From NCBI RefSeq assembly GCF_008801925.2, contig NZ_CP062804.1:2232001-2296000 (forward strand): DNA of 64,000 bases, written 5' to 3'. The notes under the pieces are model-generated. The model did no database searches, was not told the DNA's origin, and saw only the letters and a program-made list of their open reading frames with translations. This document shows, piece by piece, positions 28,639-47,194 of the stretch. The DNA comes from Cupriavidus basilensis (GTDB taxonomy: Bacteria > Pseudomonadota > Gammaproteobacteria > Burkholderiales > Burkholderiaceae). The stretch's first letter is position 1. Each line of letters starts with the position of its first letter. The position numbers and the translations under genes are program-made.

Positions 28639-29748
28639 TCAGGCTGCCTTGCGGCCAGCACCGGAACCAGCGCCGGCCGCGGCTTCGCGCTGCGCCACCA
28701 GCGCGCGCACGCGGGGGATCAGCTCGCGGCCGTAGTCCACGGCATCTTCGAGCGGATCGAAGCCGCGGATCAGGAACGTGGTCACGCCAAGGTCGTAGTA
28801 ATCCAGCAGCGCGTCGGCGACTTGCTCCGGCGTGCCGACCAGCGCGGTGGAGTTGGAGCGCGCACCGGTGAGCTTGGCGATCTCCGTCCACAGGCGCTTG
28901 TCCACGCGCGGGCCCTTGTCGGCGGCGGCCAGCAGGCGGCGCGCGCCTTCGCTTTGCTGCGGCCCGCCCTGCCCCAGGCCAGCCGCCTCGCGCAGGCGGC
29001 GCGTTTGTTCGAGGATGGCATTGGCGCGTGCCCATGCCGCCGTCTCGGTTTGCGCCAGGATCGGCCGGAACGAGACCGAGAAGCGCACCTGCCGCCCATG
29101 CCTGGCCGCCTCGGCGCGCACCCGCGTGGTGATGTCGCGGACCTGCTCGAGCGATTCGCCCCACAGTGCGTACACATCGGCATGACGTCCGGCGACATCA
29201 ATCGCCGCGTCCGAAGCCCCACCGAAGAAGATCGGCACGTGTGGCTGCTGGGCCGGCTTCACTTCGGAGAAGCCCTGGGTGAAGCGGTAATACTTGCCTT
29301 CGTGGTCGAACGGCTTGTCCTGTGTCCAGATGCGCCGCAGGATGCCGAGGTACTCGTCGGTGCGCGCATAGCGCTCGTCGTGGCTGAGGAAATCGCCGTC
29401 GCGCTGCTGCTCGGAATCGGAGCCGCCGGAGATGAAGTGCACGCCAAGCCGGCCACCGCTGAACTGATCAAGCGAGGCGATCTGTCGGGCCGCCAGCGTG
29501 GGCGCGGTAAAGCCCGGCCGGTGTGCGAGCATGAAATGCACGCGCTCGGTCACGGCAGCTGCGTAGGCAATGGTGAGCGTGGCGGACGGGCCGGTGGAGT
29601 GATGCGGCACCAGCACGCGGTCGAAGCCGGCGTTCTCATGCGCTTGCGCAAATGCCCGCACATAGTCTCGATCCACCACCGGGCCGCTGGCCGGATGGAT
29701 CTCCGACTGCTTCTGGCTCTGGATCATGCCAATGATTTCCACGCTCAT
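28639..29748 (-). CDS. ssuD: FMNH2-dependent alkanesulfonate monooxygenase (SsuD/MsuD type)
   Basis: A 369-residue bacterial luciferase-like monooxygenase that should desulfonate alkanesulfonates to aldehyde and sulfite. Start at 29748 after CAGGAGCCTA. Diagnostic segments are VPHHSTGPSATLTIAYAAAVTERVHFMLAHRPGF, the FMN-contacting GGRLGVHFISGGSD and HDERYARTDEYLGILRRIW. It needs a separate FMN reductase, not encoded nearby. It heads a two-gene sulfur-scavenging unit with the binding protein. Expression is presumably induced by sulfate starvation, though no CysB/Cbl site was identified. Confidence 0.92.
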   Translation of the reverse strand: MSVEIIGMIQSQKQSEIHPASGPVVDRDYVRAFAQAHENAGFDRVLVPHHSTGPSATLTIAYAAAVTERVHFMLAHRPGFTAPTLAARQIASLDQFSGGRLGVHFISGGSDSEQQRDGDFLSHDERYARTDEYLGILRRIWTQDKPFDHEGKYYRFTQGFSEVKPAQQPHVPIFFGGASDAAIDVAGRHADVYALWGESLEQVRDITTRVRAEAARHGRQVRFSVSFRPILAQTETAAWARANAILEQTRRLREAAGLGQGGPQQSEGARRLLAAADKGPRVDKRLWTEIAKLTGARSNSTALVGTPEQVADALLDYYDLGVTTFLIRGFDPLEDAVDYGRELIPRVRALVAQREAAAGAGSGAGRKAA

Positions 29749-40872: not shown

Positions 40873-41046
40873 ATGATGCAAGAGAACCATGGCAGGACGC
40901 GCAAATGGCACGGGCGTGCGGGCACGGCCGCCGGCGCTGCGGGGCTCTATCTGTCGCTGGGGACGGAACTGGCGTGGATACAGCTCGGGGGTGTCTTCCT
41001 GACCACCCTGGGGATTCACTTCTGGGTGATGTCCCGCCAGCAATGA
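40873..41046 (+). CDS. Small membrane protein, 57 residues, unknown function
   Basis: The frame opens at a GTG at 40825. The ATG at 40873 gives MMQENHGRTRKWHGRAGTAA followed by two hydrophobic stretches (AAGLYLSLGTELAWIQLGG and VFLTTLGIHFWVM). It may insert as a hairpin in the membrane. It sits 47 bases after the ATPase gene, so it could be the last gene of the transporter operon. No family recognised. Confidence 0.45.
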   Translation: MMQENHGRTRKWHGRAGTAAGAAGLYLSLGTELAWIQLGGVFLTTLGIHFWVMSRQQ

Positions 41047-41126: not shown

Positions 41127-41897
41127 TTAGCCAACAAATGCCTTTTCAAGCACAAAATGGCCCGGCTCGCTCATATTGCCTTCCGTGAAGTGCTGCTCGG
41201 TCAGCATCGCGCGGATGTCCTTGAGCATGTCCGGGCTGCCGCACAGCATGATGCGGTCGTTCTCGAGCGAGAACGGCTCCACGCCCAGGCGCTCGAACAG
41301 CTCGCCGTTGGCAATCAGGTCGGTGATGCGGCCCTGGTTGTCGAACTCTTCGCGGGTCACGGTGGGGAAATAGACCAGCTTTTCGCGGATCAGCTCGCCC
41401 AGGTGTTCGTGCTGCGGCAGGTGTTCCTGGATCAGCTCGCGGTAGGCCAGTTCCTCGACGAAGCGGCAGGTGTGGGTCAGCACGACCTTGTCATAGCGCT
41501 CGTACACGTCCGGGTCGCGGATGATCGACAGGAACGGGGCCAGGCCGGTGCCGGTGGCCAGCAGCCACAGGGTCTTGCCCGGCAGCAGGTTGTCGACCAG
41601 CAGCGTGCCGGTGGGCTTCTTGCCGACGAAGATCTGGTCGCCTTCCTTCAGGTGCTGCAGGCGCGACGTCAGGGGGCCGTCCGGCACCTTGATGCTGAAG
41701 AACTCCAGCGTTTCCTCGTAGTTGGCACTGGCGATGCTGTAGGCACGCAGAAGCGGACGACCGTTCACTTCCAGGCCAACCATTGCGAACTGGCCGTTTT
41801 CGAAACGGAAGCCGGGGTCGCGGGTGCAGGTGAAGCTGAAGAGCGTGTCGGTCCAGTGGTGGACGGAGAGGATGGCTTGCTGGTTGAGATTGCTCAT
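41127..41897 (-). CDS. fpr: Ferredoxin/flavodoxin-NADP reductase
   Basis: A 256-residue FAD enzyme of bacterial Fpr length. FAD contacts are in RAYSIASANYEETLEFF, and the NADP-binding ATGTGLAPFLSIIRDP is intact. It ends in VLEKAFVG, a typical bacterial subclass I tail. The ATG at 41897 (MSNLNQQAILSVHHW) was taken because the longer frame has no family counterpart. It lies 235 bases downstream of the encapsulin/desulfurase operon on the same strand and probably has its own promoter. It could supply electrons for Fe-S or sulfur chemistry. Confidence 0.93.
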   Translation of the reverse strand: MSNLNQQAILSVHHWTDTLFSFTCTRDPGFRFENGQFAMVGLEVNGRPLLRAYSIASANYEETLEFFSIKVPDGPLTSRLQHLKEGDQIFVGKKPTGTLLVDNLLPGKTLWLLATGTGLAPFLSIIRDPDVYERYDKVVLTHTCRFVEELAYRELIQEHLPQHEHLGELIREKLVYFPTVTREEFDNQGRITDLIANGELFERLGVEPFSLENDRIMLCGSPDMLKDIRAMLTEQHFTEGNMSEPGHFVLEKAFVG

Positions 41898-42132
41898 GAA
41901 TAAGGCGCTGTATGCGCTGGATGGCGCCGGCGTCGATGGCCTGTTGTGGCCTGATACCAAAGGCTTGGCGGTAGCTTGCCGGTTGCGTTCAACAAGGCGG
42001 GCCCCGGTCCGAAGGCTGGAAGGCGCGCCGATCAAGGTGAGAAGATAGCGGATTTTAGAAGAAAACGCAGGGCGCGTCCCGATTCATGCAGTTTCAGGGG
42101 GGTTATCAGCCCCACGCCCCGCGTTTTCCGGC

Positions 42133-44019
42133 TCAACGGCGCCCCGAAAGCCGCCTGACCACCGAAATCAGCCGGTCCACCTCGTCCGTGGTGTTGTAGA
42201 AGGCCAGCGACGGCCGCACCGTGGCCTCCACGCCAAAGCGGCGCAGGATAGGCTGGGCGCAGTGATGCCCGGAGCGCACGGCGATGCCTTCCTCGTTGAG
42301 CGCGCGGCCCACTTCCTCGGTTTCATAGCCCTTGAGCACGAAGGACAGCACGCTGGCCTTGTCGCGCGCCGTGCCTACCAGCCGCACGCCCGGGATGGGC
42401 TGCAGCAGGTGGGTGGCGTACTCCAGCAGGTCGTGCTCGTAGCGGGCGATGTTCTCGATGCCGACCCGCTCCACGTAGTCCAGCGCGGCGCCCAGCCCCA
42501 CCGCGTCGGCGATGTTGCCGGTGCCGGCCTCGAAGCGGTTGGGCGGCGGCTGGAACACGGTGCGCTCGAAGGTCACATCCGCAATCATGTTGCCGCCGCC
42601 TTGCCAGGGCGGCATGGCCTCCAGCAGTTCGCGCTTGCCATAGACCACGCCGATGCCGGTGGGCCCGAACACCTTGTGGCCCGAGAACACGAAGAAATCC
42701 GCGTCGATGGCCTGCACGTCCACCCGCATGTGCGAGACCGACTGCGCGCCGTCGACCAGCGCGCGGGCGCCGGCACTGTGGGCCAGGTCGACGATCTCCC
42801 TGACCGGCACCACGGTGCCCAGCGCATTCGAGACCTGCGTCACGGACACGATCCTGGTGCGGTCATTGAGCAGCCGCCGGTATTCATCCAGCAGCACCTG
42901 CCCGGAATCGTCCACCGGAATCACCCGCAGCCTGGCCCCGGTCTGCGCGGCAAGCTGCTGCCACGGCACGATATTGGCGTGATGCTCCAGGTGCGAGACG
43001 ATGATCTCGTCGCCCTCGCCCACGTTCTGCACGCCCCAGGTCTTGGCGATCAGGTTGATGGCCTCGGTGGTGCCGCGCACGAAGATGATCTCGTCGGGCG
43101 AGGACGCGCCGATAAAACGCTGCACCTTGCTGCGCGCGGCCTCGTAGGCATCCGTGGCGCGCCCGGCCAGTGCATGGGCAGCGCGGTGGATGTTGGAGTT
43201 CTCGTGCGCGTAGAAGTACGAGATGCGGTCAATCACCGACTGCGGCTTGTGCGTGGTGGCGGCGTTGTCGAACCACACCAGCTGGCGGCCGTTGACGCGT
43301 TCCTGCAAGATCGGGAAATCGCGCCGGATGGCGTTGACGTCGAACGGCACGCGCGCCGAAGACGATGCCCACGGTAGCGTCTGCTCTTGCTCGCGCCCAG
43401 AGCCGTAAGCGCCCGGCCCTTGCTGCGGCGCATGCAGCGAAAGCGGATCGCCGAACGTGGCGATCTCGCGCAGGCTCGATGCGCCGCCATGCAGGTCGCG
43501 GCCCGCGCCCTCCAGGAAGTAGTAAGCAGGCGCGGCCGAGGACTGCGGCGACGGCGACGCCGCATGCGGCACGCCCAGCGCCTGGCCGCCGAAGCGGCTT
43601 TCCACCGCGGGCGCCACCGTGGCTACCGTGTCGGGCAGGCTATTCTGCGCCACCGAGGTTGGCCGCAAGGCCGGCGCGCGATTAGCCAGCGAGAGCACAT
43701 GGGTTGGCGCGGCGGGCAGCAGGTTGGCGCCGGGCACGTGGCCCTGCGGGATCGCCGCACCCGGCACGCCGGTGCCCGTGCCGCCTGGACCCGCCACGGG
43801 CGAGCCAGGCGGCGCCGGGTTGTTCACCACGGGCAGCGACTGCGCGGCGGCGGGCGACGTCCCCGGCAGGGCCGAGAAAAACGCCCCCGCCAGGCGCGCC
43901 AGCACCGCCGGATCCGGCAGGCCGGGCGGCACCGAAGGCGCGCCCGGCAGCGCCGCCGACGGGCTGGCCGGCGGATTCGGCAGATTCACCGGATTACTTG
44001 TAGGTGTCAGGATAGTCAT
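42133..44019 (-). CDS. Family 2A encapsulin cargo: cysteine desulfurase with long disordered N-terminus
   Basis: A 628-residue enzyme in two parts. Residues 226-628 are a SufS-like desulfurase with PLP lysine Lys449 (FSGHKVFGPTG) and catalytic Cys587 (SGHHCAQP). They convert cysteine to alanine and enzyme-bound sulfur. Residues 1-225 are low-complexity Pro/Ala/Gly sequence interrupted by short hydrophobic motifs, LARLAGAFFSAL (40-51) and YYFLEG (166-171). Such N-termini load cargo into family 2A encapsulins. The start overlaps the shell gene by 26 bases. The product should be elemental sulfur inside the compartment. Confidence 0.92.
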   Translation of the reverse strand: MTILTPTSNPVNLPNPPASPSAALPGAPSVPPGLPDPAVLARLAGAFFSALPGTSPAAAQSLPVVNNPAPPGSPVAGPGGTGTGVPGAAIPQGHVPGANLLPAAPTHVLSLANRAPALRPTSVAQNSLPDTVATVAPAVESRFGGQALGVPHAASPSPQSSAAPAYYFLEGAGRDLHGGASSLREIATFGDPLSLHAPQQGPGAYGSGREQEQTLPWASSSARVPFDVNAIRRDFPILQERVNGRQLVWFDNAATTHKPQSVIDRISYFYAHENSNIHRAAHALAGRATDAYEAARSKVQRFIGASSPDEIIFVRGTTEAINLIAKTWGVQNVGEGDEIIVSHLEHHANIVPWQQLAAQTGARLRVIPVDDSGQVLLDEYRRLLNDRTRIVSVTQVSNALGTVVPVREIVDLAHSAGARALVDGAQSVSHMRVDVQAIDADFFVFSGHKVFGPTGIGVVYGKRELLEAMPPWQGGGNMIADVTFERTVFQPPPNRFEAGTGNIADAVGLGAALDYVERVGIENIARYEHDLLEYATHLLQPIPGVRLVGTARDKASVLSFVLKGYETEEVGRALNEEGIAVRSGHHCAQPILRRFGVEATVRPSLAFYNTTDEVDRLISVVRRLSGRR

Positions 44020-44926
44020 GGTACTTGCCGATCTCCACGTCATCGAGAACCGCCAGCGCATCCGGCGCGTGCACGGCCAGCGAGCAGTACAGCGAGATCA
44101 GGTACGAAGCGATAGCCTGGTCGTTGATGCCCATGAAGCGCACCGACAGGCCCGGGCCCTGCTCGCCCGCCACGCCCGGCTGGAACAGGCCGACCACGCC
44201 CTGGCGCTTGTCGCCCACGCGCAGCAGCAGGATCTTGCTCTTGCCGTCAGCCACCGGCACCTTGTCGGACGGGATCAGCGGAATACCGCGCCAGGTGATG
44301 AACTGCGAGCCGAACAGGCTGACGGTGGGCGGCGGCACGCCACGGCGCGTGCATTCGCGGCCAAAAGCGGCAATCGCCAGCGGGTGGGTCAGGAAGAACG
44401 CGGGCTCCTTCCACACCTTGCTGAGCAACTCGTCCATGTCGTCCGGCGTGGGCGCGCCGGTCAGCGGGAAGACGCGCTGCGCTTCGGCCACGTTGGCCAG
44501 CAGGCCGTAGTCCGGGTTGTTGATCAGCTCGCCTTCCTGATGCTCCTTGATGGTCTCGATGGTGAGGCGCAGCTGTTCCTTGATCTGGTCGTGCGGGCTG
44601 CTGTACAGGTCCGAGACGCGGGTATGCACGTCCAGCACGGTGCTGACCGCGTTCAGGAAATACTCGCGCGGCTGCTCTTCGTAGTTGACGAAGGTGCGCG
44701 GCAGCTTGCCTTCGTCGTCGCGCTGGGTGCAGGCGACCTTGACGGACTCGGGGTCCTGCACCTTGTTGAGGCGGTAGATGCCGGCTTCCACCGGCACCCA
44801 TTGCAGGAAATGCGTCAGCCAGCGCGGCGTGATGGTCGCGAGCTGGGGGATGGTCTTGGTGGCATTGGCTAGTTGCCGTGCTGCGTTATCGCCGAGCGCC
44901 GTCTGGCCGCTCCCGTTTACCGACAT
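43994..44926 (-). CDS. Family 2A encapsulin shell protein (SrpI-like)
   Basis: A 310-residue HK97-fold shell protein that self-assembles into a nanocompartment. Recognised by TITPRWLTHFLQWVPVEAGIYRLNKV, the central FVNYEEQPREYFLNAVSTVLDVHTRVSDLYSSPHDQ and the end VLDDVEIGKYHDYPDTYK, all typical of SrpI-type family 2A encapsulins. GGAG precedes the ATG at 44926. It lies upstream of and overlaps its desulfurase cargo. No cyclic-nucleotide-binding insertion of the family 2B kind is present. Confidence 0.95.
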   Translation of the reverse strand: MSVNGSGQTALGDNAARQLANATKTIPQLATITPRWLTHFLQWVPVEAGIYRLNKVQDPESVKVACTQRDDEGKLPRTFVNYEEQPREYFLNAVSTVLDVHTRVSDLYSSPHDQIKEQLRLTIETIKEHQEGELINNPDYGLLANVAEAQRVFPLTGAPTPDDMDELLSKVWKEPAFFLTHPLAIAAFGRECTRRGVPPPTVSLFGSQFITWRGIPLIPSDKVPVADGKSKILLLRVGDKRQGVVGLFQPGVAGEQGPGLSVRFMGINDQAIASYLISLYCSLAVHAPDALAVLDDVEIGKYHDYPDTYK

Positions 44927-44940
44927 GTGCTACTCCGTTT

Positions 44941-44958
44941 AGCTGTGAGCTGTGAGCT
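44941..44958. repeat. 7-bp tandem repeat in the encapsulin leader
   Basis: AGCTGTG occurs twice, followed by a partial third copy, 15 bases upstream of the encapsulin start. It overlaps the untranslated leader. The remaining 183-base gap shows no clear promoter by eye. Confidence 0.6.
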
Positions 44959-45109
44959 GATGGCTGATTGCTATATGAGAAAAACAAGAATCGTTATTAC
45001 CGCAGCGATTATCGGGAGACGGCCCGGCCCGTTCAACATGCTATAGACGGCAATGCGCATGGATCTGCGCAAGGATTGGCGCGTGGTTCGTGGGCATCGG
45101 CGGCGATGG

Positions 45110-45366
45110 CTAGGACCGCGTGCCTACCACCTGCGCATCACGCAGCGAGACGTGCGCGGCGCCCGATCCGAGCAGCCACGAGATCGGCACGCCCAGCGCC
45201 ACGGCCAGCTTTTCCACCGTGACGATCGAGGCAATCGCGCTGCCACGCTCGATCTCGCCGATATACGAGCGGTTCATGCCCGCATGCTCGGCAAGCTCCT
45301 CCTGCGACCACGCATGCGCCTCGCGCAACTGGCGCACGGTGGCGCCCAAAGTCCGCACCAGGTCAG

Positions 45367-45370
<4 letters not shown>
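45110..45370 (-). CDS. XRE-family helix-turn-helix regulator in the encapsulin locus
   Basis: An 86-residue Cro/C1-type DNA-binding protein. The HTH (about 5-60) reads LGATVRQLREAHAWSQEELAEHAGMNRSYIGEIERG, then IVTVEKLAVALGVPISWLLG. No effector domain follows, so it may respond through oligomer state or another protein. The ATG at 45370 overlaps the serine acetyltransferase stop (ATGA). It is therefore co-translated with sulfur metabolism and precedes the shell gene by 183 bases. Confidence 0.9.
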
Positions 45371-46320
<950 letters not shown>

Positions 46321-46423
46321 TGTGGTACTCCCCGTTCTGCGTTGTCCGCGTGATGGCTCGCGCGGCTTGTTGAGCGCTATGCTCGTTGATCTCTATGGAT
46401 CGATTGCTTGCGCCAGCCGCGGC

Positions 46424-46891
46424 TCAGTCCTGGATCCACGGCAGATCGTGAAAGCGCCAGCCGCCGCGCTTGCCGCGCCGTTGCCGCTCGTCGATCTCAC
46501 CTTCGAAGCCTTCGAGCACGTTGAACACATGCGCGATCCCCGCCTTGGTGGCGGCTTCGGCAGCCAGCGCGGAGCGGTTGCCGCTGCGGCACAGCAGCAG
46601 CACCACGGCGTCCTTGCCGGTCTTGGCTTCGAGCTCGCGCGCAAAGCGCGGGTTGCGGGTCAGGCTGGTGCCGGTGGCCCAGGGCACGTGCAGGGTATCG
46701 GGCACATAGCCGACGAACTTGCGCTCTTCCGCTGTGCGTACGTCGACCAGCACCGCATCGCCGGCGCTGAACAGCGCCCAGGCCTGCTGCGGCGTCACGC
46801 GGCCGGCATAGGGCAGGCCGGAGGAACGTGCCACGCCGCGAGCGGCTTCCAGCACGGGATGCTTGATCTTGTCTTCCGATGCGACTGTCAT
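46424..46891 (-). CDS. Rhodanese-like sulfurtransferase of the encapsulin locus
   Basis: A 155-residue single-domain rhodanese. Catalytic Cys101 sits in LLLCRSGNRSALAA, and VLVDVRTAEERKFVGYVPDTLHVPW is the conserved N-terminal half. The start at 46891 (MTVASED) has a better ribosome site than 46912. Rhodaneses move persulfide sulfur. In family 2A loci they are thought to help feed or empty the sulfur store. It is the first gene of the run transcribed toward the shell and desulfurase. Confidence 0.92.
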   Translation of the reverse strand: MTVASEDKIKHPVLEAARGVARSSGLPYAGRVTPQQAWALFSAGDAVLVDVRTAEERKFVGYVPDTLHVPWATGTSLTRNPRFARELEAKTGKDAVVLLLCRSGNRSALAAEAATKAGIAHVFNVLEGFEGEIDERQRRGKRGGWRFHDLPWIQD

Positions 46892-47194
46892 GAAACGCTC
46901 TCCTTGCAGCATGTTGTCCGCGTGCGGGCTAAGCCGGGCCTGCCCGATGCACGCTTTGTCGTTGACGGCAACCGCCTATAGCCATCACGGCTCAACTATG
47001 AAATGACGCTGCCGGATTGAGAACGAATAAAAACGCATTTCCTAAGACGCTTCCTCGAGGGCGGCACGGGCCAACGCGGGAAAGGCATGAGCCGGCTTGA
47101 CAAACCTGCCTGGCTGCGTCCAGATTCAGGGGCGGCTATGGATAACCACAGTTCACCGCGCATCGTTCACCGCTCACCTGCAGCAAGGAATGCC

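Follow-up and report, generated by a model that had tools for sequence, protein, structure and literature searches.

A family 2A desulfurase-encapsulin operon of Cupriavidus basilensis, probably under a dedicated XRE switch

Gene content of the locus

The window analyzed here, a stretch of 64,000 nucleotides (nt) from Cupriavidus basilensis (NCBI RefSeq assembly GCF_008801925.2, contig NZ_CP062804.1, positions 2,232,001 to 2,296,000), contains five genes which fill its positions 42133-46891 and which, in the order of transcription, code for a rhodanese, a serine acetyltransferase, a regulator of the XRE family, an encapsulin shell protein and a cysteine desulfurase. A first-pass annotation, made from the letters without database searches, had described them as contiguous on one strand, with two overlapping pairs. 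Curated models identify all five on the minus strand where that annotation had placed them, and the overlaps amount to 26 nt between shell and desulfurase and 4 nt between acetyltransferase and XRE. What the window contains is a genuine family 2A desulfurase-encapsulin operon with no part missing, and neither its enzymes nor its shell are out of the ordinary. The five genes are not simply one transcription unit, since a promoter-like site sits in the 183-nt interval between the XRE and shell genes. What deserves further attention is the XRE gene, which is conserved and accompanied by two operator-like sites, and we put at roughly 0.7 the probability that the operon is, as these sites suggest, under a dedicated XRE switch.

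The shell gene (43994..44926, minus strand, 310 amino acids) had been assigned to family 2A, with a model search proposed as a check. This search gave 530 bits with NF041162 (cut-off 380) and 341 bits with the SrpI-like family PF19307, and the solved homologues agree with the assignment: the best matches are 8t6r (558 bits), a Major membrane protein I that presumably stems from Acinetobacter, and SrpI of S. elongatus (6x8m, 489 bits). The shell of the window shares 80% identity with those in Acinetobacter records. The protein also exceeds the cut-off of the 2B model NF041163 (416 vs 400), but only through the shared shell part, with residues 62-300 aligned to positions 212-449 of the 450 in the model, and Pfam reports no cNMP domain in its 310 residues. 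Phage capsids, considered in the annotation as possible better matches, are distant: annotated ones reach only 23-30% identity. Among the 12 matching records of a phage collection, 10 lie in that range with E values of 4e-4 or weaker, while the other two show 80% identity, bear mmpI and sufS annotations and are bacterial-looking; in PHROGs, the best match scores 19.8 bits. These two records (H1 and H2; CAKLQH020000001.1 and CAKLQF020000001.1), named Acinetobacter phage MD-2021a, are 328-379 kb long, contain shell and sufS genes, and appear to be bacterial contigs that were given a phage name.

The desulfurase (42133..44019, minus strand, 628 amino acids) had been described as a cargo enzyme with a 225-residue N-terminus. 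Both parts of this description are borne out by a score of 947 bits with NF041166 (cut-off 800), by solved homologues, by two N-terminal motifs of published cargo types (LARLAGAFFS and AAPAYYFLEG), and by the approximately 225 residues that precede the SufS-like domain. By simple and strict patterns, each motif was found in 59 of 84 relatives, some of which are cut by contig ends. The most likely start is ATG 44019, rather than the start of the 642-residue open reading frame, and among the 33 named relatives with an alignment extending to residue 1, 32 have the same offset between desulfurase and shell. In 8kg1, the closest solved desulfurase, GHK and GHHCAQP are the aligned counterparts of SGHK and RSGHHCAQP in the window protein; we take the lysine of SGHK to be the one that binds pyridoxal phosphate and the cysteine of RSGHHCAQP to be catalytic. 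In the accessible text on SrpI/CyD of S. elongatus, a disordered N-terminal domain of 225 residues loads the cargo, whose motifs read LARLANEFFS and AASPYYFLDG (PMC8049743). That system thus resembles the window in its SufS-like cargo, the extension of approximately 225 residues, both motif types and a shell 71.5% identical to ours, and differs from it in that the terms 'serine o-acetyl', 'rhodanese' and 'regulator' occur zero times in the main text of the paper.

The rhodanese (46424..46891, minus strand, 155 amino acids; PF00581, 46 bits) is the first gene of the operon, has an active-site-like loop, CRSGNRS, and starts at ATG 46891, preceded by AAGGAGAG. The second gene (45367..46320, minus strand, 317 amino acids, GTG start) codes for a serine O-acetyltransferase of the EpsC/CysE type, which scores 159 bits with NF041874 (cut-off 150) and stays below the cut-off of TIGR01172 (166 vs 210.65 bits). 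None of the five genes codes for a cysteine synthase, and a housekeeping-type cysE, over its own cut-off, is located elsewhere in the genome. The latter (8.94 Mb, 8 contigs) contains a single match to the shell family. No RNA family reached its gathering threshold between positions 41000 and 47500.

Andreas and Giessen counted 1281 family 2A desulfurase operons in 2021, and in the accessible text of their study serine O-acetyltransferases and rhodaneses are the most enriched accessory genes (PMC8346489); four of the five genes of the window therefore belong to the expected set. Unlike the window, these operons are presented there without the words 'XRE' or 'helix-turn-helix', as far as the main text goes. 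No paper on a regulator of family 2A operons was found in the literature searched, a scope that leaves out supplements and most subscription papers. In short, the core is a known system and rhodanese and acetyltransferase are its known companions, whereas an XRE circuit with two operator-like sites was not found in print.

The XRE regulator and its candidate operators

The XRE gene (45110..45370, minus strand) codes for a protein of 86 amino acids with an HTH_3 domain (PF01381, 61 bits). Its nearest solved chains are C.BclI and C.AhdI, controller proteins of restriction-modification systems that by sequence belong to the same small helix-turn-helix family. The start codon, ATG 45370, overlaps the acetyltransferase stop; in most relatives outside Cupriavidus, the two genes are separated by a gap instead. 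In E. coli, SutR (YdcN) is an XRE regulator of sulfur utilization endowed with an extra C-terminal domain, and several XRE homologues bear the JGI label 'regulator of sulfur utilization'. The XRE protein ends in a conserved ...AIAC in Comamonadaceae and some Oxalobacteraceae (loci L053, L055-L060, L062, L063, L065 and others). The Burkholderia and Cupriavidus proteins lack this tail, whose terminal cysteine could be a sulfur sensor.

Related loci were collected by scanning one genome per species with the shell, which gave at least 594 related stretches; the best 80 of these, mostly Burkholderiales by title, are the named loci considered here. Box counts refer to 86 loci (these 80, L095 and L099-L103), 74 of which are XRE-positive and 12 XRE-negative; L096-L098, duplicates of L015-L017, were left out, and the decayed locus L104 was kept out of the tree and the box counts. 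Upstream of the shell gene, a near-invariant 21-mer, TTGnYGGCTATAGCmTGTTGA, recurs. Its copy in the window (45033..45053, minus strand; core CTATAG at 45046-45041) is proposed as the XRE operator of the shell promoter, and the last four bases of this 21-mer are the first four of the -35 of a promoter-like site, TTGAAC-17-GATAAT (45008..45036, minus strand). The latter is the sole match of a sigma-70 consensus scan of positions 41800-47150, against a shuffle mean of 0.4. In 71 of the 74 XRE-positive loci, CTATAG occurs in the 260 bases that precede the shell, the other three having CGATAG; none of the 12 XRE-negative loci has CTATAG there. When the pattern also allows CGATAG, the box followed by TTGA is found in 74/74 XRE-positive loci, and the core-to-TTGA distance is 4 nt in all 73 matched loci as well as, by eye, in L021, which the pattern missed. 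In an alignment of the 74 loci centred on the core, twelve columns are invariant (core positions -5, -2, 0, 2, 3, 4, 5 and 9 to 13), and the columns flanking the box mostly carry 0.0-0.7 bits.

The box might be no operator at all and be kept either for the C-terminal tail of XRE or only as part of the -35, a reading that draws on the 30 of 74 loci whose core falls within the 3' end of the XRE frame and usually encodes ...AIAC. We hold it to be highly improbable. In the other 44 loci (including 9 in which it is at most 6 nt from the stop), the core lies outside the frame and is conserved nonetheless, so that a function of the DNA explains the box better than the protein sequence does, and the rhodanese leader contains this core as well. 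The XRE-negative loci L086, L087, L088, L090 and L091 have XRE-positive near neighbours in the tree, and the box goes with the XRE each time, an association which is partly automatic where the box lies within the XRE gene.

The second proposed operator (46969..46987, minus strand) lies directly downstream of a -10-like CATAGT (47000-46995) of the rhodanese promoter. Before the rhodanese the core forms a fuller dyad, which reads TGATGGCTATAGGCGG in the window, TGCCGTCTATAGACGGC in L039 and GATGGTTATCGCCATCAA in Variovorax. In 57 of the 72 XRE-positive loci that have a rhodanese, a rhodanese-side box matching at least 10 of 11 positions was accepted, loci with an anchor score below 13 being left out of the scoring. 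Further upstream lies a conserved activator-like box, TTAGGAAATGCGTTTTTATTCGTT in the window (47022..47045, minus strand), with the consensus TTWGGAAATGnnTTTTTATTSGTT and the -10 approximately 21 nt further on. Presumably, it resembles a LysR-type activator site. The distance between the two boxes ranges from 34 to 52 nt across loci, excluding the 81 nt of L022, which come from a misplaced anchor. Among loci that have a rhodanese, the upstream box scores at least 12/19 in 70 of the 72 that are XRE-positive and in 6 of the 9 that are XRE-negative; since each score is the best of many positions, the lowest may be due to chance, and a few anchors are misplaced. A global sulfur-starvation activator, presumably of the CysB type, was considered for this promoter and is not supported, as the upstream box could not be linked to other sulfur genes: at up to 3 mismatches, the C. 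basilensis genome contains 2 sites (the present one with 0 mismatches, another with 3) and the reversed control also gives 2, and no match of at least 14/19 was found in nine stretches around the SsuD-like and sulfate-binding matches of that genome. Shorter ATTCGTT-like or TTATTC-like pieces, possibly chance matches, occur near some of these nine stretches.

The two proposed operators recall the sites of a controller protein. In the accessible text of PMC3758141, C.Esp1396I binds upstream of two genes, at pseudo-symmetric sites in which TATA separates two short arms, its optimal site being GAC-TATA-GTC with outer TG contacts, and the TATA of one of its sites is part of a -35 box. The window sites are built alike, as TG..GNC-TATA-GNC, which provides an independent hint that they belong to the XRE. 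Differences exist as well: the window XRE belongs to a metabolic operon, the arms of the sites are GGC/GTC-like and not GAC, and C.Esp1396I itself is absent from its sequence matches. The "one local regulator" of the first-pass annotation thus stands in so far as operator-like sites are predicted at two promoters; it does not extend to family 2A as a whole, as the XRE is outside the definition of the family and absent from 12 of the 86 loci.

Proposed sulfur compartment and its control

By analogy with known systems, the desulfurase would be packed in the shell via its N-terminus and would free sulfur from cysteine there, the acetyltransferase would raise O-acetylserine, either for cysteine synthesis or as a signal of sulfur limitation, and the rhodanese would handle sulfur outside the shell. 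The chain of supply, conversion, storage and release put forward in the first-pass annotation is for now a conjecture, all the more so as no cysteine synthase is among the five genes. Alternatively, the compartment could mainly serve redox or sulfur-relay supply, with sulfur passed to the rhodanese, instead of storing elemental sulfur; we consider this unlikely, given that elemental sulfur storage was reportedly described in a relative by Benisch et al. in 2024. The relay would fit with the presence of a rhodanese in 78 of the 80 named relatives, and channelling to a co-regulated rhodanese is suggested in the accessible text of Andreas and Giessen (PMC8346489).

In the proposed circuit, an XRE dimer would bind the dyad TTGAYGGC-TATM-GCCRTCAA and block its own rhodanese-acetyltransferase-XRE transcript. 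Self-repression is proposed because the rhodanese-side site, centred near +10, covers the transcription start. XRE would also control, and perhaps activate, the second promoter, which serves shell and cargo, although it could act as a repressor there too; the result would be that feeder enzymes and container are tuned separately. If transcription starts 7 nt after the -10, the shell-side box is centred near -42.5, in fixed phase with the -35. Around -42.5 is where activators in contact with RNA polymerase usually bind. The fixed phase fits activation, and the variable placement over the rhodanese start fits a roadblock.

Another possibility is that XRE simply represses both promoters, covering the shell -35 and the rhodanese start and being relieved under sulfur limitation. 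We regard it as a serious contender, short of even odds. The four bases shared by the shell box and the -35 speak for it, as do the 40 of 74 loci whose shell -10 has at least 4 matches of 6 at a spacing of 17-18 and may need no help; however, the -10 is weaker in the other 34 loci (mostly GACACT-like), and a strict 4-nt phasing in 73/73 loci exceeds the needs of occlusion. The fullest version of the switch, which we advance tentatively and do not expect to hold in all its parts, is that of a private, controller-protein-like device of Burkholderiales in which XRE represses the feeder transcript and activates the shell-cargo promoter, thereby creating a delay in which feeders come first and the container follows, with XRE possibly sensing sulfur directly.

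Several points weigh against a dedicated XRE switch on a sulfur-storing operon. First, XRE binding and its effect on expression are predictions from sequence, which does not decide the sign at the shell promoter, activator or repressor, and sulfur storage is attributed here by homology only. Second, a 19-base pattern has only two perfect matches in the 8.94-Mb genome (45052-45034 and 46987-46969, none in the reversed control), but sites of this kind also served to derive it, so that this uniqueness means only that no other near-identical site exists. Third, 15 of 72 loci are without an accepted rhodanese-side box (some being unscored for a weak anchor), and where the core lies in the 3' end of the XRE gene, loss of the gene takes both. 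Finally, no link was found between the activator-like box and other sulfur genes of the genome, and the loci counted are related and are the closest 80 only, hence the counts are not independent. A wider XRE regulon likewise finds no support in the host genome, where the zero-mismatch sites are only the two at the operon. At 3 mismatches, 292 sites were found against 217 in the control, a moderate excess, and among those listed one has a single mismatch and is devoid of the CTATAG core.

What triggers sulfur encapsulins, beyond the sulfur-starvation response of S. elongatus, was not found in the accessible literature. An XRE gene and two short conserved sites make the question of induction testable in an ordinary soil bacterium and, if the circuit is real, would offer a way of switching the compartment on or off.

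Distribution, history and neighbours

In 66 of the 80 named loci, the complete set of five genes is found in this order and on a single strand, so the arrangement is not due to chance. The XRE is present in 72 of them and missing in 8, L018 and L081 have rhodanese and XRE with no acetyltransferase found, and contig ends truncate another 4; four relatives further away within the same bacterial order (L100-L103) are also without XRE. The nearest named loci are those of Burkholderiaceae bacterium 16 and two Cupriavidus basilensis strains. Comparison across the genus revealed a complete shell gene in 6 of 60 Cupriavidus species, in agreement with the desulfurase search, absence being uncertain in three genomes that are less than 90% complete. 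A seventh species (G023, two contigs) retains a decayed remnant (L104:7740-8474) with a shell fragment and two desulfurase fragments, lying between the same methyltransferase and reductase genes as the operon of the window, which indicates that the locus was lost there.

In a tree built from acetyltransferase, shell and desulfurase domain, some deep nodes of which have support below 0.1, the window groups with the C. basilensis loci (support 1.0), as sister to a Burkholderia/Paraburkholderia group. The Cupriavidus genome G057 falls among Paraburkholderia (0.90), which suggests a second arrival by transfer. The contig of L080, labelled as a Moraxellaceae metagenome-assembled genome (MAG), has a five-gene locus that resembles those of Burkholderiales and includes the shell-side box; it is sister to L087, a Candidatus Dactylopiibacterium MAG; transfer or mis-binning may account for it. 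Two short contigs of G089 (L010 and L014) each carry a shell gene with 74% identity to the query, the result of either duplication or an assembly artefact.

Two flanking genes were considered as operon members and rejected. The ferredoxin-NADP reductase adjoins the operon only in C. basilensis-type loci and the G023 remnant, and a 61% homologue lies approximately 5 kb from the rhodanese of L084. Of the 60 genus genomes, 4 have the methyltransferase; three of these also have the operon, and the fourth has the remnant. Finally, approximately 12 kb from the operon, a flavin-dependent monooxygenase gene (28711-29679, minus strand), which scores 238 bits with an alkanesulfonate monooxygenase model (cut-off 518), is possibly another sulfur-scavenging gene.

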